Below are positions 7,193 through 63,974 of a stretch of 64,000 bases of DNA, piece after piece. The DNA lies in NCBI GenBank assembly GCA_028554795.2, contig CM068839.1:14036220-14100219 (forward strand), in the 5' to 3' direction. Position 1 is the stretch's first letter, and each line of letters starts with the position of its first letter. This stretch comes from Sinohyriopsis cumingii. Taxonomy: Eukaryota > Mollusca > Bivalvia > Unionida > Unionidae. A program made the position numbers and the translations under genes. Below the pieces are notes generated by a model. That model ran no database searches. It was given only the letters and a program-made list of their open reading frames with translations, and was not told where the DNA came from.

Positions 7193-7318
7193 CTGTGCTG
7201 TTCCAAGTCTGCATTCAAAAACAGATACAAACTCAATAAGAAGTACAGAAAATGGCTCAACAGCCTTCAGGCGGACAGTGCTGAACAAAATTTCAGGACC
7301 GTTCTAGATCAGGCGAAG
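7193..7318 (+). CDS. ITPR-like receptor, internal exon A (first beta-trefoil)
   Basis: This 126-bp exon (42 codons, phase 0 to 0) sits between the acceptor CTTTTTTTCCAG and a donor GTTAAT, in the frame beginning Leu-Cys-Cys-Ser-Lys. The segment CCSKSAFKNRYKLNKKYRKW lines up without gaps with the ITPR amino-terminal segment that ends in Cys-Pro-Met-Asn-Arg-Tyr; the Asn-Arg-Tyr core is identical. In ITPRs this region belongs to the suppressor domain, which tunes IP3 affinity of the endoplasmic-reticulum calcium-release channel. The call rests on this alignment together with the six downstream exons, which continue the same domain in order. The GTTAAT donor is weak but keeps the frame into exon B. 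A competing 88-codon open frame across the exon (7041-7307) has no such support. Confidence 0.85.
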
Positions 7319-7876: not shown

Positions 7877-7963
7877 GCTGCTGCAGAAGCTGAGAACAAC
7901 GACAATGAAGCGGAACAAAAACGACAGCATGGGAAGCGTGTGCGGTACGGGGAAGTTGTGCAG
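7877..7963 (+). CDS. ITPR-like receptor, internal exon B
   Basis: This 87-bp exon (29 codons, phase 0 to 0) lies between an acceptor CAACAG and the donor GTGGGA. It encodes an acidic, alanine/glutamine-rich stretch followed by Gly-Lys-Arg-Val-Arg-Tyr-Gly-Glu-Val-Val-Gln. This matches the ITPR segment where a charged variable loop precedes (Val/Lys)-Tyr-Gly-x-Val-(Ile/Val)-Gln, the first strand of the MIR-type repeat. The frame continues directly into exon C (Leu-Lys-His), as ITPRs continue Gln-Leu-Leu-His. A second possible donor lies ten codons downstream (GTGAACG at 7993), but using it would insert residues that do not fit the alignment. Confidence 0.88.
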
Positions 7964-12358: not shown

Positions 12359-12594
12359 CTTATAAATGTCATCCAACACTGACTCTTACAAACAAAACTG
12401 ATTAGGGTAGAGGATAAAAGTATGTGATAATCACTTTCACATATTCTTACATCTAAACCTTGATAACTTCAAAGAGATAATAGCATTACATGAAACATCT
12501 TTGACAAAGTCCAGGAGAAATAAACCTGTCCAAAATATGATGCAAGAGAAATATTTACAAGTTAAGGCAAGTTAAGAGAAATATCAAGTTATGT

Positions 12595-12962
12595 AAAGCA
12601 ATAGTCCATTTGCTATTTATTGTGCATCAAAAAAATTAATTAAAGCAATAGTTCATTTGCTATTTATTGTGCATCAAAAAAATTAATTAAAGCAATAGTT
12701 CATTTGCTATTTATTGTGCATCAAAAAAATTAATTAAAGCAATAGTCCATTTGCTATTTATTGTGCATCAAAAAAATTAATTAAAGCAATAGTCCATTTG
12801 CTATTTATTGTGCATCAAAGAAATTAATTAAAGCACTAGTCCATTTGCTATTTATTGTGCATCAAAAAAATTAATTAAAGCAATAGTTCATTTGCTATTT
12901 ATTGTGCATCAAAAAAATTAATTAAAGCAATAGTTCATTTGCTATTTATTGTGCATCAAAAT
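12595..12962. repeat. Minisatellite, 47-bp unit, about 8 near-identical copies
   Basis: The unit contains AGCAATAGT(C/T)CATTTGCT, ATTTATTGTGCATC and an A-run followed by TTAATT. Copies differ mainly at one C/T site, so the array expanded recently or is homogenised. Confidence 0.92.
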
Positions 12963-14308: not shown

Positions 14309-14386
14309 CTGAAGCATATTTTTACTGGGAAATTTGTCCACATGAGTACAACCCAAACCAGTCAAATTGACAAGAACTATATGAAG
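14309..14386 (+). CDS. ITPR-like receptor, internal exon C; founder unit of the 84-bp array
   Basis: This 78-bp exon (26 codons, phase 0 to 0) follows the strong acceptor TTTTCCTTTTTATTACAG and ends ATGAAG before donor GTTTGT. It reads Leu-Lys-His-Ile-Phe-Thr-Gly-Lys-Phe-Val-His-Met, then ends Asp-Lys-Asn-Tyr-Met-Lys. It aligns gap-free over all 26 residues with the ITPR segment that begins Leu-Leu-His, has Asn-Lys-Tyr-Leu in the middle and ends Glu-Lys-Asn-Ala-Met-Arg. The next exon resumes with Val-Ser-Leu where ITPRs have Val-Thr-Leu. Without this exon the domain would lack 26 residues between exons B and D. Later units of the downstream array repeat this exon without an acceptor. Confidence 0.9.
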
Positions 14387-17300
14387 GTTTGTATATTGCA
14401 TATATTTACTGGGAAATTTGTCCACATGAGTACAACCCAAACCAGTCAAATTGACAAGAACTAAATGAAGGTTTGTATATTGCATATATTTACTGGGAAA
14501 TTTGTCCACATGAGTACAACCCAGACAAGTCAAATTGACAAGAACTATATGAAAGTTTGTATATTGCATATATTTACTGGGAAATTTGTCCACATGAGTA
14601 CAACCCAGAAAAATCAAATTGACAAGAACTATATGAAGGTTTGTGTATTGCATATATTTACTGGGAAATTTGTCCACATGAGTACAACCCAGACAAGTCA
14701 AACTGACAAGAACTATATGAAGGTTTGTGTATTGTATATATTTACTGGGAAATTTGTCCACATGAGTACAACCCAAACCAGTCAAATTGACAAGAACTAT
14801 ATGAAGGTTTGTGTATTGGATATATTTACTGGGAAATTTGTCCACATGAGTACAACCCAAACCAGTCAAATTGACAAGAACTATATGAAGGTTTGTGTAT
14901 TGGATATATTTACTGGGAAATTTGTCCACATGAGTACAACCCAATGCAGTCAAACTGACAAGAACGATATGAAGGTTTGTGTATTGCATATATTTACTGG
15001 GAAATTTGTCCACACGAGTACAACCCAGAAAAGTCAAATTGACAAGAACTATATGAAGGTTTGTGTATTTGATATATTTACTGGGAAATTTGTCCACATG
15101 AGTACAACCCAAACCAGTCAAATTGACAAGAACTATATGAAAGTTTGTATATTGTATATATTTACTGGGAAATTTGTCCACATGAGTACAACCCAAACCA
15201 GTCAAATTGACAAGAACGATATGAAGGTTTGTGTATTGCATATATTTACTGGGAAATTTGTCCACATGAGTACAACCCAGAAAAGTCAAATTGACAAGAA
15301 CTATATGAAGGTTTGTATATTGTATATATTTACTGGGAAATTTGTCCACATGAGTACAACCCAAACCAGTCAAATTGACAAGAACTATATGAAGGTTTGT
15401 GTATTGCATATATTTACTGGGAAATTTGTCCACATGAGTACAACCCAAACCAGTCAAATTGACAAGAACTATATGAAGGTTTGTATATTGGATATATTTA
15501 CTGGGAAATTTGTCCACATGAGTACAACCCAAACCAGTCAAATTGACAAGAACGATATGAAGGTTTGTGTATTGCATATATTTACTGGGAAATTTGTCCA
15601 CATGAGTACAACCCAGACAAGTCAAATTGACAAGAACTATATGAAGGTTTGTATATTGTATATATTTACTGGGAAATTTGTCCACATGAGTACAACCCAA
15701 ACCGGTCAAATTGACAAGAACTATATGAAGGTTGTATACTGTATATATTTACTGGGAAATTTGTCCACATGAGTACAACCCAGACAAGTCAAATTGACAA
15801 GAACTAAATGAAGGTTGTATACTGTATATATTTACTGGGAAATTTGTCCACATGAGTACAACCCAAACCAGTCAAATTGACAAGAACTAAATGAAGGTTT
15901 GTATATTGTATATATTTACTGGGAAAATTTGTCCACATGAGTACAACCCAAACCAGTCAAATTGACAAGAACTAAATGAAGGTTGTATACTGTATATATT
16001 TACTGGGAAATTTGTCCACATGAGTACAACCCAGAAAAGTCAAATTGACAAGAACTATATGAAGGTTGTATACTGTATATATTTACTGGGAAATTTGTCC
16101 ACATGAGTACAACCCAAACCAGTCAAATTGACAAGAACTAAATGAAGGTTTGTATATTGTATATATTTACTGGGAAAATTTGTCCACATGAGTACAACCC
16201 AAACCAGTCAAATTGACAAGAACTAAATGAAGGTTTGTATATTGTATATATTTACTGGGAAATTTGTCCACATGAGTACAACCCAAACCGGTCAAATTGA
16301 CAAGAACTATATGAAGGTTGTATACTGTATATATTTACTGGGAAATTTGTCCACATGAGTACAACCCAGACAAGTCAAATTGACAAGAACTAAATGAAGG
16401 TTGTATACTGTATATATTTACTGGGAAATTTGTCCACATGAGTACAACCCAGACAAGTCAAATTGACAAGAACTATATGAAGGTTGTATACTGTATATAT
16501 TTACTGGGAAATTTGTCCACATGAGTACAACCCAGACAAGTCAAATTGACAAGAACTAAATGAAGGTTGTATACTGTATATATTTACTGGGAAATTTGTC
16601 CACATGAGTACAACCCAAACCGGTCAAATTGACAAGAACTATATGAAGGTTGTATATTGTATATATTTACTGGGAAATTTGTCCACATGAGTACAACCCA
16701 GACAAGTCAAATTGACAAGAACTATATGAAGGTTGTATACTGTATATATTTACTGGGAAATTTGTCCACATGAGTACAACCCAGACAAGTCAAATTGACA
16801 AGAACTAAATGAAGGTTGTATACTGTATATATTTACTGGGAAATTTGTCCACATGAGTACAACCCAAACCGGTCAAATTGACAAGAACTATATGAAGGTT
16901 GTATATTGTATATATTTACTGGGAAATTTGTCCACATGAGTACAACCCAAACCAGTCAAATTGACAAGAACTAAATGAAGGTTTGTATATTGTATATATT
17001 TACTGGGAAATTTGTCCACATGAGTACAACCCAAACCGGTCAAATTGACAAGAACTATATGAAGGTTGTATACTGTATATATTTACTGGGAAATTTGTCC
17101 ACATGAGTACAACCCAGACAAGTCAAATTGACAAGAACTATATGAAGGTTGTATACTGTATATATTTACTGGGAAAGTTGTCCACATGAGTACAACCCAA
17201 ACCAGTCAAATTGACAAGAACTAAATGAAGGTTTGTATATTGTATATATTTACTGGGAAATTTGTCCACATGAGTACAACCCAAACCGGTCAAATTGACA

Positions 17301-18427
17301 AGAACTATATGAAGGTTGTATACTGTATATATTTACTGGGAAATTTGTCCACATGAGTACAACCCAGACAAGTCAAATTGACAAGAACGATATGAAGGTT
17401 TGTGTATTGCATATATTTACTGGGAAATTTGTCCACATGAGTACAGCCCAGACAAGTCAAATTGACAAGAACTAAATGAAGGTTGTATACTGTATATATT
17501 TACTGGGAAATTTGTCCACATGAGTACAACCCAGACAAGTCAAATTGACAAGAACTATATGAAGGTTGTATACTGTATATATTTACTGGGAAATTTGTCC
17601 ACATGAGTACAACCCAGACAAGTCAAATTGACAAGAACTAAATGAAGGTTGTATACTGTATATATTTACTGGGAAATTTGTCCACATGAGTACAACCCAA
17701 ACCGGTCAAATTGACAAGAACTATATGAAGGTTGTATACTGTATATATTTACTGGGAAATTTGTCCACATGAGTACAACCCAAACAAGTCAAATTGACAA
17801 GAACTATATGAAGGTTTGTGTATTTGATATTTTTACTGGGAAATTTGTCCACACAAGTACAACCCAGACCAGTCAAATTGACAAGAACTATATGAAGGTT
17901 TGTATATTGCATATATTTACTGGGAAAATTTGTCCACATGAGTACAACCCAGACCAGTCAAATTGACAAGAACTAAATGAAGGTTTGTATATTGTATATA
18001 TTTACTGGGAAATTTGTCCACATGAGTACAACCCAAACCAGTCAAATTGACAAGAACGATATGAAGGTTTGTATATTGCATATATTTACTGGGAAATTTG
18101 TCCACATGAGTACAACCCAAACCAGTCAAATTGACAAGAACGATATGAAGGTTTGTATATTGTATATATTTACTGGGAAAATTTGTCCACATGAGTACAA
18201 CCCAAACAAGTCAAATTGACAAGAACTATATGAAGGTTTGTGTATTTGATATTTTTACTGGGAAATTTGTCCACACAAGTACAACCCAGACCAGTCAAAT
18301 TGACAAGAACTATATGAAGGTTTGTATATTGTATATATTTACTGGGAAATTTGTCCACATGAGTACAACCCAAACCAGTCTTATTGACAAGGACTATATG
18401 AAGGCTTGTGTATTGTGTATATTTTAA
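14312..18427 (+). repeat. Exon-derived tandem array, 84-bp unit, about 49 copies
   Basis: Each unit is exon C from its GCATAT onward (67 bp) plus the first 17 bp of the following intron (GTTTGTATATTGCATAT). At 84 bp it equals 28 codons, so frame is kept from unit to unit. Most units from about 14465 to 15730 are open on both strands. Around 15730-17770 an 83-bp variant (GGTTGTATACTG, one T lost) dominates and breaks the frame; 85-bp variants with GGGAAAA also occur. Recurring blocks point to higher-order duplications, for example the ACACAAGTACAACCCAGACC variant near 17850 and again near 18270. Unit 2 already has TAA in place of the Tyr codon, so reading through from exon C would stop there. 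The array lies in the intron between exons C and D. Confidence 0.95.
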
Positions 18428-23129: not shown

Positions 23130-23370
23130 AAAGCATATCATTAATTATATAATTTGCAGGTATAGCTACATGAATTATTAATTACATAATTTGCAGGTAT
23201 ACCTACATGAGTTCATTATTTGCATATTTTACTAATGTATCTACAAGAGTTCATTAATTGCATATTGTGCAGATATCCCTACATGAGTTCATTAATTTTA
23301 TATTTTGCAGATATCCCTACATGAGTTTATTAATGAGATATTTTGCAGGTATCACTACATGAGTTCAATG
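23130..23370 (+). repeat. Tandem repeat of a 3' splice site and exon start, about 39-bp unit, 6 copies
   Basis: The last unit is the real junction of exon D (TATTTTGCAG before GTATCACTACATGAGTTCA). Five upstream units repeat it in diverged form: TAATTTGCAGGTATAGCTAC, TAATTTGCAGGTATACCTAC, TATTTTACTAATGTATCTAC, TATTGTGCAGATATCCCTAC and TATTTTGCAGATATCCCTAC, each followed by a version of ATGAGTTCATTAAT. Four of the five keep an AG acceptor. Confidence 0.88.
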
Positions 23371-23429
23371 CAAAGAATGCACAGTTTAAGATTCTTCCAA
23401 GGTACAAGGTCAAATCAGAGGGTGAAGTG
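23349..23429 (+). CDS. ITPR-like receptor, internal exon D
   Basis: This 81-bp exon (27 codons, phase 0 to 0) lies between acceptor TATTTTGCAG and the strong donor GTGAGT. It reads Val-Ser-Leu-His-Glu-Phe, then Asn-Ala-Gln-Phe-Lys-Ile-Leu-Pro-Arg-Tyr-Lys-Val-Lys-Ser-Glu-Gly-Glu-Val. In ITPRs the equivalent is Val-Thr-Leu, then Gly-Ser-Trp-x-x-Ile-Gln-Pro-x-x-Lys-Leu-Arg, ending in Gly-Asp-x-Val. The hydrophobic and basic pattern is kept although the Trp is replaced. It continues the MIR-type beta-trefoil from exon C. The acceptor is the last of six similar tandem copies, so accurate splicing requires choosing the final AG. Confidence 0.9.
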
Positions 23430-25989: not shown

Positions 25990-26087
25990 GTTCAGCTGTT
26001 TGACCAAATAGTGTATGAAAGTATCAAGTCTCCTGGCCACTACTTCCATACCAGTCAGCCCTCCCAGATAGACTATATTTCATGGGG
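25990..26087 (+). CDS. ITPR-like receptor, internal exon E
   Basis: This 98-bp exon (phase 0 to 2) lies between acceptor TTGTGCAG and donor GTAAGT. It reads Val-Gln-Leu-Phe-Asp-Gln-Ile-Val, then Ser-Pro-Gly-His-Tyr-Phe-His-Thr-Ser-Gln, and ends Tyr-Ile-Ser-Trp plus two bases of a Gly codon. The ITPR equivalent is Val-Val-Gly-Asp-Lys-Val-x-Leu, then Gly-Gln-Pro-Leu-His-Ala-Ser, a MIR-type strand-turn-strand. The unfinished codon (GG) is completed by the first base of exon F, 33.7 kb downstream, and this phase match is strong support for both. The intron that follows holds the Polinton insertion. Confidence 0.92.
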
Positions 26088-38285: not shown

Positions 38286-38650
38286 AAGGGGGATCCTATA
38301 GCCTCAATGGGAATTAGCATTACAGACCCCCTTGGGAACATATAGCCTCAATGGAAATTTAACATGGAGAAAAATCGTGGGAACATATAGCCTCAATGGG
38401 AATTTAACATAGAGAAAAATCGTGGGACGATATAGCCTCAAGAGGAATTGAACATGGGAATTGGGACTGTATAGCGTCAAAGGAATTTAAACAGGGTGGG
38501 ACTGTATAGCGTCAAGGGAAATTGAACATGGGAATAGAGTGTGGGTCTATCTAGGGACTAGGGGAATTTAACATATGGAAATCGAACATGGTGGGTCTGT
38601 ATAGCGTCAAGGGGAATTGAACATGGTGGGATTGTCTAGGGACAATGATG
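38286..38650 (+). promoter_or_regulatory. Polinton left subterminal repeats (TATAGC-TCAA core)
   Basis: About eight irregular units of 40-60 bp carry TATAGC(C/G)TCAA followed by GGAATT and AACATGG or AACATAG, each preceded by GGGA(C/T) or GTGGG. Subterminal repeats at transposon and virus ends are often binding sites for proteins acting at the ends. That role here is inference. Confidence 0.7.
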
Positions 38651-38927
38651 GTAGAGGGTCAAACACAACAGAGACAGAAACATACATACACTAGTACAAG
38701 CGTGAGATTTATATATAAAGCATTACCAAGACCTGAAATCTTGCTGGGGTGTTCAAAAATTTGCATAATTGTAATGATGCTATAAATAGCTATAATCAAG
38801 GAAATGCTCAACGACAAAATGGATGTGACTAAAAGTAACGCTAAAATGACGAAATTGTCCCAGAATTTAAAGGAAAATAAACATATCCCCGAAAATTAAG
38901 TTACAATGGTTTAGACTAAAATGGATA

Positions 38928-39357
38928 AAATTAGTAACTACTTACAATATCAACTTCTGTGACGATCGTGAATAAATACCTATGTATCTATAATCAGCTG
39001 AAATTCCTATGAAATCCCACTATCTATTTATAGCTCCAACTTGTGGGTTTTTCCTTTGGAAAATCCCACTATCTTTTTATAGCCTCAGCTTGAGTGACGT
39101 TCCTGTTTATGAATTCTAGTATATATGTATAGCTACGAAATGTGGAAATCCCCAAGTCGATATTTATAGTCTCGAAATTTCCAGCGTCAGTGACGTCACT
39201 GTACTGAACACTAGGGGATAAATGGCAACAGTGTTGCAAGTGGCTGACCTGAATACGCGCTACTGTAGGTAGGTAGGTAGAGTGTATCTGATAGGGATAA
39301 AGTGAGTTTTATAGGGACAAACAGAGACCAATAGACACACACAACGTACGCGCGCAG

Positions 39358-39398
<41 letters not shown>

Positions 39399-39944
39399 CA
39401 CAACGTACGCGCGCAGACACACACAAACACACACACACACAACGTACGCGCGCCGACATACTCACACACACACACATACACACACACACATAAACACACA
39501 CACTATAAAATAAATAAAATTAGTAACTACTTACAATATCAACTTCTGTGACGATCGTGGATAAATACCTATGTATCTATAATCAGCTGAAATTCCTATG
39601 AAATCCCACTATCTATTTATAGCTCCAACTTGTGGGTTTTTCCTTTGGAAAATCCCACTATCTTTTTATAGCCTCAGCTTGAGTGACGTTCCTGTTTATG
39701 AATTCTAGTATATATGTATAGCTACAAAATGTGGAAATCCTCAAGTCGATATTTATAGTCTCGAAATTTCCAGCGTCAGTGACGTCACTGTACTGAACAC
39801 TAGGGATAAATATCAACAGTGTTGCAAGTGGCTGACCTGAATACGCGCTACTGCAGGTAGGTAGGTAGAGTGTATCTGATAGGGATAAAGTGAGTTTTAT
39901 ACGGACAAACAGAGACCAATAGACACACACAACGTACGCGCGCA

Positions 39945-39982
<38 letters not shown>

Positions 39983-40016
39983 CACAAACACACACACACA
40001 CAACGTACGCGCGCAG

Positions 40017-40048
<32 letters not shown>

Positions 40049-40561
40049 AAACACACACACACACACACACACAACGTACGCGCGCCGACATACTCACACA
40101 CACATAAACACACACACACTATAAAATAGATAAAATTAGTAACTACTTACAATATCAATTTCTGTGACGATCGTGGATAAATACCTATGTATCTATAATC
40201 AGCTGAAATTCCTATGAAATCCCACTATCTATTTATAGCTCCAACTTGTGGGTTTTTCCTTTGGAAAATCCCACTATCTTTTTATAGCCTCAGCTTGAGT
40301 GACGTTCCTGTTTATGAATTCTAGTATATATGTATAGCTACAAAATGTGGAAATCCCCAAGTCGATATTTATAGTCTCGAAATTTCCAGCGTCAGTGACG
40401 TCACTGTACTGAACACTAGGGATAAATATCAACAGTGTTGCAAGTGGCTGACCTGAATATGCGCTACTGCAGGTAGGTAGGTAGAGTGTATCTGATAGGG
40501 ATAAAGTGAGTTTTATACGGACAAACAGAGACCAATAAACACACACAACGTACGCGCGCAG

Positions 40562-40592
<31 letters not shown>

Positions 40593-41215
40593 GAAACACA
40601 CACACACACACACAACGTACACGCGCCGACATACTCACACACACACATACTCACACACACAGAAACACACAACGTACGCGCGCAGACATACTCACACACA
40701 CACACACATAAACACACACACTATAAAATAGATAAAATTAGTAACTACTTACAATATCAACTTCTGTGACGATCGTGGATAAATACCTATGTATCTATAA
40801 TCAGCTGAAATTCCTATGAAATCCCACTATCTATTTATAGCTCCAACTTGTGGGTTTTTCCTTTGGAAAATCCCACTATCTTTTTATAGCCTCAGCTTGA
40901 GTGACGTTCCTGTTTATGAATTCTAGTATATATGTATAGCTACAAAATGTGGAAATCCCCAAGTCGATATTTATAGTCTCGAAATTTCCAGCGTCAGTGA
41001 CGTCACTGTACTGAACACTAGGGATAAATATCAACAGTGTTGCAAGTGGCTGACCTGAATACGCGCTACTGCAGGTAGGTAGGTAGAGTGTATCTGATAG
41101 GGATAAAGTGAGTTTTATACGGACAAACAGAGACCAATACACACACCCACACAACGTACGCGCGCAGACACACACACACACACACACACATACACACATA
41201 CACACACACATACAG
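38928..41215. repeat. About 600-bp tandem units in the left arm, 4 copies, each with a CRE palindrome
   Basis: Units start near 38928, 39516, 40132 and 40734. Each has TTAGTAACTACTTACAATAT, then four TATAG(C/T) words spaced about 50-60 bp apart (TTTATAGCTCC, TTTATAGCCTC, GTATAGCTAC, TTTATAGTCTC). Next comes the CRE-type palindrome TGACGTCA (39191, 39780, 40396 and 40998), a GTAGGTAGGTAG tract, and a CA-rich block with CGTACGCGCGC. The CA block varies in length between units. Open frames of up to 153 codons ending in the same residues in every unit come from this repetition and are not counted as genes. Confidence 0.9.
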
Positions 41216-41221
41216 AGGGAA

Positions 41222-41520
41222 GAGGAAAAAACAAACCCCAAATATACTATCAACACAGAAGGGAGATGATACAAACCCCAAATAAACTATCCACACAAAC
41301 GTACGCGAACGCATACAAACCCCAAATATACTATCAACACAGAAGGGAGATGATACAAACCCCAAATAAACTATCCACACAAACGTACGCGAACGCATAC
41401 AAACCCCAAATATACTATCAACACAGAAGGGAGATGATACAAACCCCAAATAAACTATCCACACAAACGTACGCGAACGCATACAAACCCCAAATATACT
41501 ATCAACACAGAGTGAAGAAG
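41222..41520. repeat. 84-bp tandem repeat, left arm, 3 full copies plus a partial
   Basis: Each unit is two half-units: CAAACCCCAAATAAACTATC with CGTACGCGAACGC, then CAAACCCCAAATATACTATC with AGAAGGGAGATG. The unit is a multiple of three and open on both strands. The right arm has one more unit. Confidence 0.92.
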
Positions 41521-41962
41521 TAAAAGTTTTTTGAAAGCACCTAAGCCCTCACCTGCAATGACCAACTCTGCCAAACACCTACACCCCACCCCACCCCACC
41601 CCCACTTCCAACACTACAAAACCCATTTAACCCGTTATTTTATGGCATCAGTGTGTGATTTAGGAAACATCAAGACACAAAATAATGGAGGAATAGACTG
41701 ACTATTGTTTACCGACTTGCATGCCTAAAGAGCGTGCGTGAAGGAAAACATCCTTCCATTTCAATTCTAACTAAAACATGATCCAGACGGATAGAGATAG
41801 GTGAAAGGGCACAATTTCATAAAGTGTGAGTAGAAAACAAAACACGCCATCCTTATTATACAATGTCAAGACCAAGAGACACTTACGTGTTCTTTCTGGT
41901 CTATTCTCTTTTAGAAGGTAGTATGAAATTTCACATCAGGGCCAACGCATCGGCTCACATTG

Positions 41963-42121
41963 TCAATTTTTCCATTTCCATGTCTTTACTGGCACAAGTT
42001 CTTCATCATCTTCAATTTCTTCTTCTTCTGAATCCCTCTTCTCTGTTTCGTCTTGTTTTTGTTTATTCTCTTTTCTCGTAGGGCACTCTGAATTCCAGTG
42101 TCCTTTCTCCTGACAACGATA
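41963..42121 (-). pseudogene. Zinc-knuckle (CCHC-like) protein remnant, left arm
   Basis: This is the mirror copy of 52380-52538. The minus strand reads Tyr-Arg-Cys-Gln-Glu-Lys-Gly-His-Trp-Asn-Ser-Glu-Cys-Pro, the second half of a CX2CX4HX4C zinc knuckle, followed by a Lys/Glu-rich acidic tail and a stop. The codon where the first Cys is expected is TAA. Zinc knuckles of this form are typical of retroelement Gag proteins and some nucleic-acid-binding proteins. The source is unknown. Confidence 0.55.
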
Positions 42122-44827
42122 TTAGGTATCTTGACTTTTGTCTCTCTTTCTTAGACGAAGCAGGTATTCTGGAGACAAATACCCATTTACCTTTGCAGAT
42201 ATAGCAAACTTCATTAGCACTTACACACTTTCGTATGACTCTCATCAAATCAACGACCAAAAGAGTAAGTTTTGTTGCCACTTTCGCATGTGAATTATGC
42301 TTTCGTACGACTTTTAGCAAATATTTGACCAGCAGGTCGATCTGTGCTGACTCTTCCATCTTTGATCATTTGAGAGCGGAATGAATACTCTGACGCTAAG
42401 ACACTCTCCTTATATACAGAGACCTGCTGCGTATGAAACCTAGTCAAATGTAATTTTGCAATAAGATGAAACGATTTCATTGAGGAAGTAAAAGGCAATG
42501 ATGTACCGTATCGCCTCACACAAAACCTGAAGTGTTAGTTCAAATCCGTGTCAGCGATTTCGAAGACGACATAACTGGGCTTTAATCAATGCTCTCCATT
42601 TCTGCCACGAAACCACGAGTCCTGATTCACGCCAAAAGAAATTTCGTTCGGTCCATAAAAAATAGTATCACATCTGAGAAACGCAAAAACGAACTTCCAG
42701 AAAACTGAGAACGACGGCTTACACCTACAACGTAAATGTATGAGTTCAAGTAGTGCGTAAAACTTAGTCAAATTAAATTTTTATAGTCAAGACGAAACGA
42801 TCTCTTTTCGAAGAAGAAAGCAGACACCAAACGACAATGGCGATCCGTGTCACACAACACTTTTCAAAATGTGTATGATCAGAGGTTTATTTAGCGATCT
42901 GCACGGTTAAATTAAATGTTGATGTATTTTGCAATAAGACGGACACAATTTCTATGGGATCGCCCATGGTACGATTGTTCGTGCATTAGTTTAATTTTTA
43001 AAAATATTTTTTTATATAAATCGCCTATAGGATAGACCCAGTAAAGCATGGCCATTCTCGTCACTGTCTGAATAGCTACTCAAGTCAATTCCAAGCGAAC
43101 GCGGTAAGAAAATAAGTATAGCCAATGAAATGGCTTACAACGGGTGATGCATTGTTTTGTTCTAGGACTGTGTGGCATAATAATCCCTATGTTCTTGCGT
43201 TGTTACCATTACAGTGCAGACACTGAAATGTGAACTTACAAGCCCAATTTGTGTGTGTGTGTGTGTGTGTGTGTTGTACCATTTCCTCTTACCACATCAA
43301 AATACTGAGCGTCACAGTATTGGTTCGCGTTTTCAAGCTGACCATTTTTTTATATCTCACTTAAACATTTCGACATAAACACTCACACTCACATCGGTAG
43401 AATCAGAACAGACGTGTTACAGTATTGAGGGGCATGTTATCTTTTTTTTCAAACCAATAAATTTGGGTTTGTATGAAGTAAAGAACCGAAAGTACAGTGA
43501 AACTCAAGGATGATGACCCAATCTGTCTGTCTATTGATGCATGTATTTACTTAAGAAGAAATATGAACTCTAAAACACAAAGAGATACGGCAAGCATGAT
43601 TAGATTAAACACAACGATGTTTTTCCTTCACGCCTGTGTAATTTAGAGTTTCAATCGTCTTTGAACACAAACTTGGTCTCCTTTTGTAGGGCTTGAAATA
43701 ATAAAAGAAGCTGAAAAATCTTAAGCACTTTGCTATAGATAATTTCATCAACAGACTAAACAACATAAATACCGTTACAACAATAGAAAGCCTTAAATCT
43801 TCTATCAAAAAGAAATGCATGAAAAAAATTAAAGATTAACGATAACTAACCAATGAAACCGAATTTAACAAAGGCAATGACATGTGAAGAAATGCCTCTC
43901 ACTTTGGAAAGGTAGGCGAATGTACTCTGTCATGCACCATCAACTTGAAAAAAATTATAAACAGAGAGAAACCTGAATTCAAAATTCAGTTTTGTTTTTT
44001 TTTTCTTCAAAATTATTTCGTTTCTTTTTTCTTTTTTTTGGAACAAATCTAAGCACTAATATAGAGTGGAAAAGGGAAAATGCACATACAAGCTTTGATA
44101 TTTCTGAAAAAATGAGGGGATATTCCTAACGTTCATAACCACCTATATATGCTTGGACTTGTCTGTGACTTATCCACAAAACAAGATGTACATATTTCTG
44201 GTCAAGCTGCAAGTGTGTGCGTGTTTTTGAAAATGGTAAAAACTTGGATATACAATTTTCTCGTGACACTTATAAAGTGAAGAGTCTGTGCAAGTGTCAA
44301 AAGCCAAAGTCATATAAGTTTTGTATTTTGTACGGCTTGTAAAGATTTCCACTTTAGGAAATGTGAAGTATCACAAGTTATTATCACAAACAGAAGTGGA
44401 ACATAGGGGCTTGCAAGAAAGAAAATAACCCAGACAGTTGGTGTCATCAAGAGTGCTAGAGACGGTACCCGAACTTGCTTGCTTGCTTACTTGAATTAAA
44501 GTGATTTTCGCTCTAATGGAGCATGTATCACTGGTTTAATAACGCACCGCGTGATTTTTAATTACTCCTGGGGAAGGAAAGAGAGCCTCATCCCCCCAGG
44601 CTTTTATGTACTCACAGACTACTTTTAAATTTAGCCACTCAGGTGTAGGACTAACTAGTCCTTAACAACCTGACTGAAAGGCTTTACACATGAGTGGGAA
44701 TTGTCTCACCACACACTCATTTTTCTGTCCGAGCGTGGTAAAGGAGGAAAAAGGTGCTCAGCAAGACAGCCATGGATGTTAAGTACTCACCAAAACGCTA
44801 GCCCGTACTTATTTCAGATCAAGTCGT

Positions 44828-49677: not shown

Positions 49678-52379
49678 GGACTTGATTTGAAATAAGTACG
49701 GGCTAGCGTTTTGGTGAGTACTTAACATCCATGGCTGTCTTGCTGAGCACCTTTTTCCTCCTTTACCACGCTCGGACAGAAAAATGAGTGTGTGGTGAGA
49801 CAATTCCCACTCATGTGTAAAGCCTTTCAGTCAGGTTGTTAAGGACTAGTTAGTCCTACACCTGAGTGGCTAAATTTAAAAGTAGTCTGTGAGTACATAA
49901 AAGCCTGGGGGGATGAGGCTCTCTTTCCTTCCCCAGGAGTAATTAAAAATCACGCGGTGCGTTATTAAACCAGTGATACATGCTCCATTAGAGCGAAAAT
50001 CACTTTAATTCAAGTAAGCAAGCAAGCAAGTTCGGGTACCGTCTCTAGCACTCTTGATGACACCAACTGTCTGGGTTATTTTCTTTCTTGCAAGCCCCTA
50101 TGTTCCACTTCTGTTTGTGATAATAACTTGTGATACTTCACATTTCCTAAAGTGGAAATCTTTACAAGCCGTACAAAATACAAAACTTATATGACTTTGG
50201 CTTTTGACACTTGCACAGACTCTTCACTTTATAAGTGTCACGAGAAAATTGTATATCCAAGTTTTTACCATTTTCAAAAACACGCACACACTTGCAGCTT
50301 GACCAGAAATATGTACATCTTGTTTTGTGGATAAGTCACAGACAAGTCCAAGCATATATAGGTGGTTATGAACGTTAGGAATATCCCCTCATTTTTTCAG
50401 AAATATCAAAGCTTGTATGTGCATTTTCCCTTTTCCACTCTATATTAGTGCTTAGATTTGTTCCAAAAAAAAGAAAAAAGAAACGAAATAATTTTGAAGA
50501 AAAAAAAACAAAACTGAATTTTGAATTCAGGTTTCTCTCTGTTTATAATTTTTTTCAAGTTGATGGTGCATGACAGAGTACATTCGCCTACCTTTCCAAA
50601 GTGAGAGGCATTTCTTCACATGTCATTGCCTTTGTTAAATTCGGTTTCATTGGTTAGTTATCGTTAATCTTTAATTTTTTTCATGCATTTCTTTTTGATA
50701 GAAGATTTAAGGCTTTCTATTGTTGTAACGGTATTTATGTTGTTTAGTCTGTTGATGAAATTATCTATAGCAAAGTGCTTAAGATTTTTCAGCTTCTTTT
50801 ATTATTTCAAGCCCTACAAAAGGAGACCAAGTTTGTGTTCAAAGACGATTGAAACTCTAAATTACACAGGCGTGAAGGAAAAACATCGTTGTGTTTAATC
50901 TAATCATGCTTGCCGTATCTCTTTGTGTTTTAGAGTTCATATTTCTTCTTAAGTAAATACATGCATCAATAGACAGACAGATTGGGTCATCATCCTTGAG
51001 TTTCACTGTACTTTCGGTTCTTTACTTCATACAAACCCAAATTTATTGGTTTGAAAAAAAAGATAACATGCCCCTCAATACTGTAACACGTCTGTTCTGA
51101 TTCTACCGATGTGAGTGTGAGTGTTTATGTCGAAATGTTTAAGTGAGATATAAAAAAATGGTCAGCTTGAAAACGCGAACCAATACTGTGACGCTCAGTA
51201 TTTTGATGTGGTAAGAGGAAATGGTACAACACACACACACACACACACACAAATTGGGCTTGTAAGTTCACATTTCAGTGTCTGCACTGTAATGGTAACA
51301 ACGCAAGAACATAGGGATTATTATGCCACACAGTCCTAGAACAAAACAATGCATCACCCGTTGTAAGCCATTTCATTGGCTATACTTATTTTCTTACCGC
51401 GTTCGCTTGGAATTGACTTGAGTAGCTATTCAGACAGTGACGAGAATGGCCATGCTTTACTGGGTCTATCCTATAGGCGATTTATATAAAAAAATATTTT
51501 TAAAAATTAAACTAATGCACGAACAATCGTACCATGGGCGATCCCATAGAAATTGTGTCCGTCTTATTGCAAAATACATCAACATTTAATTTAACCGTGC
51601 AGATCGCTAAATAAACCTCTGATCATACACATTTTGAAAAGTGTTGTGTGACACGGATCGCCATTGTCGTTTGGTGTCTGCTTTCTTCTTCGAAAAGAGA
51701 TCGTTTCGTCTTGACTATAAAAATTTAATTTGACTAAGTTTTACGCACTACTTGAACTCATACATTTACGTTGTAGGTGTAAGCCGTCGTTCTCAGTTTT
51801 CTGGAAGTTCGTTTTTGCGTTTCTCAGATGTGATACTATTTTTTATGGACCGAACGAAATTTCTTTTGGCGTGAATCAGGACTCGTGGTTTCGTGGCAGA
51901 AATGGAGAGCATTGATTAAAGCCCAGTTATGTCGTCTTCGAAATCGCTGACACGGATTTGAACTAACACTTCAGGTTTTGTGTGAGGCGATACGGTACAT
52001 CATTGCCTTTTACTTCCTCAATGAAATCGTTTCATCTTATTGCAAAATTACATTTGACTAGGTTTCATACGCAGCAGGTCTCTGTATATAAGGAGAGTGT
52101 CTTAGCGTCAGAGTATTCATTCCGCTCTCAAATGATCAAAGATGGAAGAGTCAGCACAGATCGACCTGCTGGTCAAATATTTGCTAAAAGTCGTACGAAA
52201 GCATAATTCACATGCGAAAGTGGCAACAAAACTTACTCTTTTGGTCGTTGATTTGATGAGAGTCATACGAAAGTGTGTAAGTGCTAATGAAGTTTGCTAT
52301 ATCTGCAAAGGTAAATGGGTATTTGTCTCCAGAATACCTGCTTCGTCTAAGAAAGAGAGACAAAAGTCAAGATACCTAA

Positions 52380-52538
52380 TATCGTTGTCAGGAGAAAGGA
52401 CACTGGAATTCAGAGTGCCCTACGAGAAAAGAGAATAAACAAAAACAAGACGAAACAGAGAAGAGGGATTCAGAAGAAGAAGAAATTGAAGATGATGAAG
52501 AACTTGTGCCAGTAAAGACATGGAAATGGAAAAATTGA
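52380..52538 (+). pseudogene. Zinc-knuckle (CCHC-like) protein remnant, right arm
   Basis: The frame after a TAA (52377-52379) reads Tyr-Arg-Cys-Gln-Glu-Lys-Gly-His-Trp-Asn-Ser-Glu-Cys-Pro, an acidic Glu/Asp run, and a stop at 52536-52538 (52 codons). The first Cys position of a CX2CX4HX4C knuckle falls on the TAA. The overlapping 98-codon frame at 52142-52438 is a different phase and shows no domain. Both arms carry the same lesion, so the damage predates the copying of the arm. Confidence 0.55.
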
Positions 52539-52979
52539 CAATGTGAGCCGATGCGTTGGCCCTGATGTGAAATTTCATACTACCTTCTAAAAGAGAATAG
52601 ACCAGAAAGAACACGTAAGTGTCTCTTGGTCTTGACATTGTATAATAAGGATGGCGTGTTTTGTTTTCTACTCACACTTTATGAAATTGTGCCCTTTCAC
52701 CTATCTCTATCCGTCTGGATCATGTTTTAGTTAGAATTGAAATGGAAGGATGTTTTCCTTCACGCACGCTCTTTAGGCATGCAAGTCGGTAAACAATAGT
52801 CAGTCTATTCCTCCATTATTTTGTGTCTTGATGTTTCCTAAATCACACACTGATGCCATAAAATAACGGGTTAAATGGGTTTTGTAGTGTTGGAAGTGGG
52901 GGTGGGGTGGGGTGGGGTGTAGGTGTTTGGCAGAGTTGGTCATTGCAGGTGAGGGCTTAGGTGCTTTCAAAAAACTTTT

Positions 52980-53360
52980 ACTTCTTCACTCTGTGTTGAT
53001 AGTATATTTGGGGTTTGTATGCGTTCGCGTACGTTTGTGTGGATAGTTTATTTGGGGTTTGTATCATCTCCCTTCTGTGTTGATAGTATATTTGGGGTTT
53101 GTATGCGTTCGCGTACGTTTGTGTGGATAGTTTATTTGGGGTTTGTATCATCTCCCTTCTGTGTTGATAGTATATTTGGGGTTTGTATGCGTTCGCGTAC
53201 GTTTGTGTGGATAGTTTATTTGGGGTTTGTATCATCTCCCTTCTGTGTTGATAGTATATTTGGGGTTTGTATGCGTTCGCGTACGTTTGTGTGGATAGTT
53301 TATTTGGGGTTTGTATCATCTCCCTTCTGTGTTGATAGTATATTTGGGGTTTGTTTTTTC
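52980..53360. repeat. 84-bp tandem repeat, right arm, 4 full copies plus a partial
   Basis: Mirror of 41222-41520 with one additional unit. Each unit has two related half-units containing TATTTGGGGTTTGTAT. Translations of 113 and 166 residues across it are repeat artefacts. Confidence 0.92.
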
Positions 53361-53990
53361 CTCTTCCCTCTGTATGTGTGTGTGTATGTGTGTATGTGTG
53401 TGTGTGTGTGTGTGTGTCTGCGCGCGTACGTTGTGTGGGTGTGTGTATTGGTCTCTGTTTGTCCGTATAAAACTCACTTTATCCCTATCAGATACACTCT
53501 ACCTACCTACCTGCAGTAGCGCGTATTCAGGTCAGCCACTTGCAACACTGTTGATATTTATCCCTAGTGTTCAGTACAGTGACGTCACTGACGCTGGAAA
53601 TTTCGAGACTATAAATATCGACTTGGGGATTTCCACATTTCGTAGCTATACATATATACTAGAATTCATAAACAGGAACGTCACTCAAGCTGAGGCTATA
53701 AAAAGATAGTGGGATTTTCCAAAGGAAAAACCCACAAGTTGGAGCTATAAATAGATAGTGGGATTTCATAGGAATTTCAGCTGATTATAGATACATAGGT
53801 ATTTATCCACGATCGTCACAGAAGTTGATATTGTAAGTAGTTACTAATTTTATCTATTTTATAGTGTGTGTGTTTATGTGTGTGTGTGAGTATGTCTGCG
53901 CGCGTACGTTGTGTGTTTCTGTGTGTGTGAGTATGTGTGTGTGTGTGAGTATGTCGGCGCGTGTACGTTGTGTGTGTGTGTGTGTGTTTC

Positions 53991-54023
<33 letters not shown>

Positions 54024-54570
54024 CTGCGCGCGTACGTTGTGTGTGTTTATTGGTCTCTGTTTGTCCGTATAAAACTCACTTTATCCCTATCAGATACACT
54101 CTACCTACCTACCTGCAGTAGCGCATATTCAGGTCAGCCACTTGCAACACTGTTGATATTTATCCCTAGTGTTCAGTACAGTGACGTCACTGACGCTGGA
54201 AATTTCGAGACTATAAATATCGACTTGGGGATTTCCACATTTTGTAGCTATACATATATACTAGAATTCATAAACAGGAACGTCACTCAAGCTGAGGCTA
54301 TAAAAAGATAGTGGGATTTTCCAAAGGAAAAACCCACAAGTTGGAGCTATAAATAGATAGTGGGATTTCATAGGAATTTCAGCTGATTATAGATACATAG
54401 GTATTTATCCACCATCGTCACAGAAGTTGATATTGTAAGTAGTTACTAATTTTATTTATTTTATAGTGTGTGTGTTTATGTGTGTGTGTGTATGTGTGTG
54501 TGTGTGAGTATGTCGGCGCGCGTACGTTGTGTGTGTGTGTGTTTGTGTGTGTCTGCGCGCGTACGTTGTG

Positions 54571-54620
<50 letters not shown>

Positions 54621-55060
54621 TGCGCGCGTACGTTGTGTGTGTCTATTGGTCTCTGTTTGTCCCTATAAAACTCACTTTATCCCTATCAGATACACTCTAC
54701 CTACCTACCTACAGTAGCGCGTATTCAGGTCAGCCACTTGCAACACTGTTGCCATTTATCCCCTAGTGTTCAGTACAGTGACGTCACTGACGCTGGAAAT
54801 TTCGAGACTATAAATATCGACTTGGGGATTTCCACATTTCGTAGCTATACATATATACTAGAATTCATAAACAGGAACGTCACTCAAGCTGAGGCTATAA
54901 AAAGATAGTGGGATTTTCCAAAGGAAAAACCCACAAGTTGGAGCTATAAATAGATAGTGGGATTTCATAGGAATTTCAGCTGATTATAGATACATAGGTA
55001 TTTATTCACGATCGTCACAGAAGTTGATATTGTAAGTAGTTACTAATTTTATCCATTTTA
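53361..55060. repeat. About 600-bp tandem units in the right arm, 3 copies, each with a CRE palindrome
   Basis: Mirror of 38928-41215 but with three units instead of four. TGACGTCA lies at 53580, 54182 and 54779. GT-rich blocks with GCGCGCGTACG separate the units and vary in length. Confidence 0.9.
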
Positions 55061-55324
55061 GTCTAAACCATTGTAACTTAATTTTCGGGGATATGTTTAT
55101 TTTCCTTTAAATTCTGGGACAATTTCGTCATTTTAGCGTTACTTTTAGTCACATCCATTTTGTCGTTGAGCATTTCCTTGATTATAGCTATTTATAGCAT
55201 CATTACAATTATGCAAATTTTTGAACACCCCAGCAAGATTTCAGGTCTTGGTAATGCTTTATATATAAATCTCACGCTTGTACTAGTGTATGTATGTTTC
55301 TGTCTCTGTTGTGTTTGACCCTCT

Positions 55325-55692
55325 ACCATCATTGTCCCTAGACAATCCCACCATGTTCAATTCCCCTTGACGCTATACAGACCCACCATGTTCAATTTCC
55401 ATATGTTAAATTCCCCTAGTCCCTAGATAGACCCACACTCTATTCCCATGTTCAATTTCCCTTGACGCTATACAGTCCCACCCTGTTTAAATTCCTTTGA
55501 CGCTATACAGTCCCAATTCCCATGTTCAATTCCTCTTGAGGCTATATCGTCCCACGATTTTTCTCTATGTTAAATTCCCATTGAGGCTATATGTTCCCAC
55601 GATTTTTCTCCATGTTAAATTTCCATTGAGGCTATATGTTCCCAAGGGGGTCTGTAATGCTAATTCCCATTGAGGCTATAGGATCCCACTTC
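55325..55692 (-). promoter_or_regulatory. Polinton right subterminal repeats
   Basis: Mirror of the left subterminal set: repeated TTGA(C/G)GCTATA with GGAATT/AATTCC and CCATGTT words in irregular 40-60 bp units running up to the element end. Confidence 0.7.
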
Positions 55693-61020: not shown

Positions 61021-61549
61021 TGAACCATATATAATGAGAGGTTAAAGACACACAACAGATGAAGCAATCATGAGTTGAGTGCAGTATGCCATGCATGTTG
61101 GCAGATGTCTGTAACATATAATTAGTTGTCAACATCAAGCCTAATGTGAAGATAAGGAAAATGTTTTGCTTCTAATTGGCTCTATTAAATGTCATTCCTT
61201 CAGATATTGCCTATGATGTACACAAATTTGTATACATTGCATTTTATTTTTCCTCAGCTATCAAGCAGTCTTTCCTTTAAGAATTTCCCTCTGCTTCTGA
61301 GTTTTCCTTTCAGTTATTTTGTATAATTTATGCATTCCTGTAATTCATTTTGCAAAGAAATTTACTTTTGTTTATCGTTATTGCTAATTGGCCTATACCT
61401 AAGACTATCAGCAGTGATAGATGCTCAAAGTGCTAAAGTTTAATGAGGTAAAGTTACAAGACTGTCCTAAAGGCCTGAAATTTGTTCTTAATATTATTAG
61501 CAATAATTTTGATGACTAATTGTCAAGTCAGAATCTGTTTTTCGTGTAG

Positions 61550-62120
61550 TCCGAACAGTCAACATTTTATGACTCGCATGTTTTTGTTATTGTTCAGACA
61601 GCCATCATTTTAAGATTCTATATTTTTCTTACAGTCCAGAAAGCCAGTGTTTTAGGAATCCATGTTTTTGTTATTGTCCAGACATCCAACATTATATGAA
61701 TCCATCTCTTTCTTATAATTCTGACAGCCAACACGTTACAATCCATGTTTTTCTTATAGTCCAGACAGCCATCATTTTATGATTCCATATTTTTCTTATG
61801 GTCCAGAAAGCCAATGTTTTAGGAATCCATGTTTTTGTAATAGTCCAGACAGCCAACATTATATGAATCCATCTCTTTCTTATAGTTCTGACAGCCAACA
61901 CTTTACAGTCCATGTTTTTCTTTGAAGTTCAGAAAGCCAATATTTTATTAATCCATGTTTTTGTTAATGTTCAGACAGCCAACATTTTATGAGTCCATAT
62001 TTTTCTGATAGTCCTGACAGCCAACATTTTATGAATCAATGTTTTTGTTATTGTTCAGTCATCATTTTATGTGTCCACATTTTTCTTATAGTCCAGACAG
62101 TCAACATTTTATGAATCCTT
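61550..62120. repeat. Minisatellite, about 42-bp unit, first segment
   Basis: Units carry GTCCAGACAGCCAACATTTT, ATGAATCCATG and TTTTTCTTATA. The pyrimidine tract plus TATAG in each unit looks like a 3' splice site. The array is split by a LINE insertion and resumes at 63540. Confidence 0.9.
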
Positions 62121-63539: not shown

Positions 63540-63825
63540 CATCTCATTAGCATAGTTCTGACAGCCAACATTTTATTAATCCATGTCATTCTTTTAGTCC
63601 AAACAGCAAACATTTTTTGAATGCATGTCTTATAGTCCAGACAGTCAGCTTTTTATGAATTCTGTCTTTCTCATTGTAGACAGACAACATTTTATGAATC
63701 CATGACTTTCTTATAGTCTAGACAAGCAAACTTTTATAATACATGTCTTATAGTCCTGACAGTCAACATTTTATGACTCTATGCCTCTCTTATAGCCCAG
63801 AGGGGCCAGCATTTTGTGTCCTCTT
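63540..63825. repeat. Minisatellite, about 42-bp unit, second segment
   Basis: This is the same unit as 61550-62120 (CCAGACAG(C/T)CAACATTTTATG), resuming directly after the LINE tail. The array therefore existed before the LINE insertion. It ends about 60 bp before exon G. Confidence 0.88.
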
Positions 63826-63886: not shown

Positions 63887-63974
63887 GGAGGGTCAGTGAT
63901 CAGATTGTTTCACAAGGAATTGGAGGCCTATCTTGTGGCAGAAGGGATATTTGATGACACAGTCACTGAAGATG
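63887..63974 (+). CDS. ITPR-like receptor, internal exon G (start of ligand-binding core)
   Basis: This 88-bp exon (phase 0 to 1) lies between acceptor TTTATTTAAAG and donor GTATGT. It reads Gly-Gly-Ser-Val-Ile-Arg-Leu-Phe-His-Lys-Glu-Leu-Glu-Ala-Tyr-Leu, the hallmark ITPR motif Gly-Gly-Asp-Val-Val-Arg-Leu-Phe-His-Ala-Glu-Gln-Glu-Lys-Phe-Leu that opens the IP3-binding core. The Arg equivalent to human ITPR1 Arg241 is present, whereas the Lys249 equivalent is Ala. This substitution suggests altered ligand binding, a point of inference. The rest of the receptor, including the channel, lies downstream of the window. Confidence 0.93.

Follow-up and report, generated by a model that had tools for sequence, protein, structure and literature searches.

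The intron between exons C and D of an ITPR-like gene in the bivalve Sinohyriopsis cumingii very probably carries a two-sided 'mirage' minisatellite, with an array of donors at one end and an array of acceptors at the other. We call the window the whole stretch of 64,000 nucleotides that was analysed; it lies on C16, and a sister copy of the gene is found 520 kb away. The donor-side array is made of an 84-bp unit taken from exon C and the start of its intron. The 38-bp unit of the acceptor-side array consists of the end of the intron, with a GCAG acceptor, and the first bases of exon D. The features of the gene in the window are the following (positions, strand, description):

7193..7318, + strand: exon A of the ITPR-like gene; as assembled, its A-run has one base more than that of the sister copy, which shifts the frame
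7877..7963, + strand: exon B, 29 codons, phase 0
14309..14386, + strand: exon C, 78 bp, 26 codons, phase 0; seed and unit 1 of the 84-bp array
14315..18424, + strand: 84-bp array, 49 units, each with 72 bp of exon C and 12 bp of intron
14387..14398, + strand: intron part of unit 1, 12 bp, donor GTTTGT
23138..23367, + strand: acceptor-side array, 38-bp unit, 6 units, 5 of them with a GCAG acceptor
23349..23429, + strand: exon D, 27 codons, phase 0, preceded by the last acceptor of the acceptor-side array
25990..26086, + strand: exon E of the ITPR-like gene, with a homologous exon in the copy L042
63887..63974, + strand: exon F, a later exon, matching ITPR1 residues about 235-254

Exon C is bounded by an acceptor (tttttattacag|CTG) and a donor (GAAG|gtttgt) and has no stop in its 26 codons. 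The peptide of the joined exons B, C, and D aligns without gaps to ITPR1 (chain residues 93-173 or 95-175), with E-values of 6.2e-11 and 6.5e-11 for the two best ITPR1 chains. Taken together, the array, exon C, and its homology are far beyond chance. These results bear out the preliminary description in taking the first unit for a real exon with an acceptor, a donor, and phase 0. Its assignment of exon C to the MIR-type region of ITPR was right as regards ITPR and may need correction as regards MIR: Pfam sets exon C in Ins145_P3_rec, and the best MIR match comes in later exons, although a weaker one may overlap exon C. When pieces of exons E-H were added to exons B-D, Pfam returned Ins145_P3_rec (E 1.1e-16) and MIR (E 6.8e-14), and the best PDB match was ITPR1 (E 2.4e-17). 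By these two domains, the gene of the window is a member of the IP3R/RyR superfamily.

The later exons, in the order of ITPR1, start at the window-numbered positions 63887, 70965, 72858, and 95463. The last of these, exon I, is also matched by the RYDR_ITPR family (C16:14131658, 95 kb into the window copy). The part of the gene that was seen spans ~88 kb, and the frame is open in eight exons of the window copy, B-I. The gene thus resembles the IP3 receptor family (ITPR1) in the order of its exons and in the match of the joined exons to Ins145_P3_rec and MIR, but it is a divergent paralogue: the canonical-looking IP3R of this genome sits on C11, and there C and D form one exon. There are at least seven IP3R/RyR-type loci in the genome, on C2, C5 (two places), C11, and C16 (three places). 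Upstream of exon F, two 42-bp arrays (61536-62118 and 63552-63801) carry an acceptor-like TTCTTATAG in many units; no likeness between these arrays and exon F was noticed by eye. A run of ~5 kb of N follows directly after the end of the window (C16 from 14100220).

TRF called the 84-bp array at 14316-18424 (period 84, 49.1 copies, 94% match), and its splitting by a script gave 49 units, in line with the amplification of exon C to about 49 copies first noticed in the sequence. The exon part of the unit runs from CAT to AAG, i.e., to the last base of exon C. The 17 bp of intron initially given for each unit must be corrected to 12 bp, or 11 when counted from GCATAT. An acceptor at the unit start is present in unit 1 only, among the 49 units; in the common unit, the 12 bp between exon copies contain no AG, and AGs are confined to the exon part. 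GT is kept at the donor position in 48 of the 49 units, and the last one has GC. The donors with GT include 27 GAAG|GTTTGTR, 19 shortened GAAG|GTTGTA, and 2 GAAA|GTTTGT.

The unit is exactly 28 codons long. TAA occurs in 14 of the 49 window units, unit 2 among them, a one-base donor deletion in 19, and an extra A in 4. Reading on from exon C through the window array meets 40 stops in 1,372 codons, the first of them at codon 52. Units 3-17 stay open, since they carry no stop and the length of the unit is a multiple of three. The earlier claim that the frame is kept over the first third of the array is hence correct for the length of the unit and for units 3-17, but not for unit 2 with its TAA. 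The 40 stops rule out that the array in the window is a protein-coding VNTR, i.e., a repeat that is translated through. In Dscam-like clusters of mutually exclusive or alternative exons, an acceptor and a donor flank every single repeated exon. That each unit is a separate alternative exon is ruled out here, because units 2-49 have no acceptor at their start.

Other properties of the units were also analysed. Variation is greater at third codon positions than at the first two (0.072 vs 0.034), a possible trace of constraint, although the segregating sites, counted by eye, are even over the codon positions (7, 5, 7). A pN/pS of 0.27-0.43 among units was set aside as a test of selection because pairs of units are non-independent. 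No stable RNA structure was found for the units (z 0.49). A query of other genomes with the frame of six units gave no array ORF: it returned eight proteins, and each match spans roughly a single unit, or 16% of the query. The number of units could have been affected by the difficulty of assembling 49 near-identical 84-bp sequences. Yet the window array contains 33 distinct unit sequences in irregular order, and the sister copy has a separate array of six units with the same ends. We regard it as extremely unlikely that the repeat count is an assembly artefact, even if the exact number in the window may still be off.

The explanation that we favour, a two-sided mirage at the C-D intron, involves one tandem duplication across the donor of exon C and another across the acceptor of exon D, as shown by the make-up of both units, which straddle these borders. 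Slippage or unequal exchange would then have extended each array into the intron. C would be joined to D in frame through the first donor and the last acceptor, and all that lies between these sites would be removed as intron, as suggested by the sequence and by published cases. Since an intact exon-proximal copy remains on each side, such growth would be tolerated. The stops, frameshifts, and altered donors in many of the later window units are what is expected of mostly non-coding repeats. We infer the use of the exon-proximal splice sites from the sequence. The explanation is supported by the ITPR homology, the conservation of exons B-D, the presence of an acceptor at unit 1 only, the damage to the units, and the single open pairing in the window. 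It is further supported by the sister copy, where the donor-side array has the same end-points and the acceptor-side array recurs, by two distant copies with single exons C and D and no array across those borders, by borders that are hit no more often than array coverage predicts, by an independent array at exon B of another copy, and by the regular splicing suggested for amphioxus mirages and the favoured copy in CBS 844ins68.

This pairing was identified by combining donors of the pattern ATGAAR|GT with acceptors of the patterns TTGCAG or GTGCAG, the site patterns that the analysis covers, and by requiring C+D to be open and in frame. In the window, 1 of the 240 pairings (48 donors by 5 acceptors) was open, i.e., that of the unit-1 donor with the last acceptor. 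This result, together with the stop in unit 2 and the lack of acceptors in later units, speaks against the exon-number variation that had been envisaged from in-frame units in the window copy. The sister copy has 6 open pairings out of 66 (6 by 11), made by every one of its six donors with the last acceptor, and these give 53, 81, 109, 137, 165, or 193 codons. A ladder in steps of 28 residues is possible in the sister copy. The splicing noise suggested in the preliminary description would also be most plausible there, since all six units are open.

It is quite unlikely that sister donors 1-6 are in fact joined in frame to exon D to produce isoforms with 28 more residues per unit in the IP3R-like N-terminal domain. 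Such a ladder would be consistent with the preservation of GAAG|GTTTGT at the six sister donors, all of them open with the last acceptor (6 of the 66 pairings), and with a unit of exactly 28 codons. However, it is closed in the window copy by the stop of unit 2. Furthermore, the unmodified length is conserved, because the C-D junction is gap-free to ITPR1 and to the one-piece ORFs P0001, P0004, and P0005, and six clean units may have occurred by chance, window units 3-16 being clean too.

The arrays could also act as splice-site decoys that cut productive splicing as a function of their copy number, so that array length tunes expression. We find this role unlikely. It would agree with the GT kept at the donor position in 48 of the 49 units and with the failure of 239 of the 240 tested pairings in the open-frame test. 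The human CBS VNTR, which has a similar architecture, is reportedly associated with reduced CBS activity, according to the title of a paper. On the other hand, 19 units carry the altered GTTGTA donor, and regular splicing is reportedly undisturbed by the mirages of amphioxus (PMC3087553). A point against the two-sided mirage is that the exon-proximal donor is no stronger than most at the bases checked (GAAG|GTTTGTR in 27 of the 49 units). Since it matches most of the others, its use would rest on position or on further signals.

A genome search with the 84-bp sequence gave at least 55 matches, 49 in the window and 6 in one sister copy, and these two copies are its sites in the assembled genome among the matches listed. 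The six sister units are at C16:14571239-14571750, on the same strand as the window copy. The sister copy holds exons A-D, and a RYDR_ITPR match (C16:14632443) lies 61 kb past its array. It has both arrays, with 6 units on the donor side (vs 49 in the window) and about 13 of the 38-bp units on the acceptor side (vs 6 in the window). GAAG|GTTTGT is kept at six out of six donors, and the frame is open over the six units. The end-points of the arrays are identical in the window and sister copies, which implies that the arrays predate the gene duplication or were exchanged later. Under the two-sided mirage explanation, they would be older than the duplication that gave the two copies 520 kb apart, or would have been exchanged since, and the numbers of units would have diverged afterwards.

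The comparison of the two copies also bears on a possibility that we consider doubtful, namely that the window copy, as a decaying duplicate, let its array grow unchecked. The window exon A is one base longer than that of the sister copy, whose frame is that of the homologous ORFs P0028 and P0029, with a weak agreement with ITPR1 (E 0.96), and the larger, stop-bearing array is the one of the window copy. Against this, the extra A affects a single A-run and could be an assembly error instead of a real lesion, exons B-I are open, and the sister copy has both boundary arrays too. Exons B, C, and D differ between the copies by 2 nonsynonymous changes in 196 N sites vs 5 synonymous changes in 50 S sites, which indicates that B-D are under purifying selection.

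The divergence of the introns between window and sister copies is 13.7% (464 of 3,389 aligned bases), a figure that pools five of nine aligned stretches. The remaining stretches diverge by 11.3% (A-B), 7.2% (exon E), 6.3% (beside C), and 3.7% (beside D). Those adjacent to C and D are below the pool (Fisher p 1.7e-5 and 2.3e-9), and the one beside D includes exon sequence. The two C arrays have within-array diversities of 5.3-5.7% and a net divergence of 0.0001. They show 3 consensus differences and no fixed difference in 84 columns, whereas about 8-16 fixed differences are expected at divergences of 10-19%. Set against introns that differ by 13.7%, this similarity is not easily fitted to plain intronic drift, and in this respect it speaks against the two-sided mirage. 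It could stem from exchange between copies, from homogenisation tied to the selected exon, or from constraint on the units.

Several other arrays served as controls. Net divergence is 0.006-0.009 for the D, 31-bp, and 100-bp arrays, which have a higher diversity (0.066-0.200) in at least one array, and 0.069 for the 26-bp array. The 47-bp array gave no value, because the sister copy has a single unit. Near-zero net divergence as proof of exchange is weakened by these controls, but not removed, since three of the five are similarly low. The 47-bp array, in the B-C intron (12594-12961, 97% match), has 8 units in the window vs one recovered in the sister copy and is perhaps a recent expansion. 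It is very unlikely that the two C arrays form one pool that is kept coding, with the sister donors building isoforms with 1-6 copies of the 28 residues and exchange between the gene copies feeding the units.

More distant copies and homologous ORFs provide examples of the gene without these arrays. The copy at C16:74.69 Mb (L042) has single exons C and D separated by an intron of ~0.65 kb, with no TRF array within 3.1 kb, and in ORFs of other genomes (P0007, P0021-P0027), different sequence follows a single exon C. The preliminary description had proposed to look in related species for a single exon without an array, and these cases uphold its view of exon C as a conserved ITPR-type exon that seeded the array. 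In the copy at C5:30.73 Mb (L043, L044), exons C and D are separate, and arrays are found near them but none across the C/D borders. The idea that the C-D intron was newly made by duplication is ruled out by the two distant copies, each with C and D on separate exons. Against a simple history of this intron speak the canonical-looking IP3R on C11 and the ORFs of other genomes that have these exon parts in one piece (P0001, P0004, P0005, P0006); B is in one piece with C in P0002 and P0003. In the copy at C5:154.46 Mb (L045, L046), we saw exons B and D but did not locate exon C. On the reverse strand of L045 (C5:154468600-154469700, positions 309-483), a 35-bp array of 5 units reaches into the acceptor of exon B and probably also takes in its first codon. 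This independent exon-B acceptor array at C5:154.47 Mb shows that the border-straddling process recurs.

The region is rich in minisatellites. Arrays with a period of at least 10 make up 24% of the window and 19% of either flank; over all 259 kb read, the share is 20.4%. Only 2 of the 18 borders of exons A-I are inside an array, compared with 3.7 expected. Exons as preferred seeds of arrays are thus unsupported by the 20.4% coverage: border arrays are at or below the expectation, so no special liking for exons is needed. A minisatellite-rich region should yield such arrays where selection allows them, namely at borders that keep a whole exon-proximal copy. Elsewhere in the window, 38290-42203 and 52298-55689 are apparent reverse-complement copies of one repeat-rich stretch, with matching TRF units and mirrored tblastn matches.

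With 48 candidate donors and 5 candidate acceptors, this single intron is a natural test case for the choice that the spliceosome makes among near-identical sites. The sister copy with its six open units is a control in the same cell, and the distant copies that lack these arrays are a second control. Our analysis extends mirage minisatellites to another genome, beyond amphioxus genes and human CBS, and suggests that mirages are a by-product of a high minisatellite load and not a peculiarity of lancelets. Among the literature matches listed, which consist of titles and starts of abstracts with subscription papers mostly outside, there was no mirage in a mollusc or in an ITPR gene; the cases of border arrays were amphioxus genes only, plus human CBS in kind.

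The term 'mirage' was introduced for minisatellites at exon-intron borders in amphioxus (PMC3087553), where they are reported in Adh3, in the globins BflGb6 and BflGb9, and in TnC, with similar repeats in PGBD5 (PMC3087553; PMC3902484). Haplotypes of BflGb6 with 6 and 3 units at one border and a duplicate at one border of BflGb9 are described, and RT-PCR suggested regular splicing without interference (PMC3087553). In the window, as in these genes, tandem units straddle the border, many have splice signals, their number is unstable, and both 5' and 3' borders are concerned. The straddling is found at the C donor and at the D acceptor in two gene copies. The outermost units (unit 1 of C and the last unit of D) are continuous with the real exons and have intact splice signals, and the number of units is unstable between gene copies (49 vs 6; 6 vs about 13). 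The arrays of the window and sister copies are mirage minisatellites, a rare but already known type of repeat. They differ from the amphioxus mirages, as these are reported, in that the ~49 units of the window hold nearly the whole coding exon, in the presence of a second array at the opposite end of that intron, and in the recurrence of both arrays in a second gene copy.

The 31-bp VNTR of human CBS (c.1444_1467+7, 16-21 repeats) has, by its notation, a unit of 24 nt of exon end and 7 nt of intron, and the donor is likewise repeated many times (PMC2630376). Its 31 bp are not whole codons, whereas the unit of the window has 28 codons. The CBS 844ins68 also repeats an intron-exon border, and one copy is strongly favoured (PMC2630376). 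The VNTR and 844ins68 are at different introns in CBS, whereas both arrays of the window are at one intron. Finally, duplications across AG|GT or across exon-intron borders are reported to multiply splice sites (PMC4974935). Compared with the introns that arise from AG|GT duplications in that account, the duplications of the window extend the existing C-D intron and did not create one.
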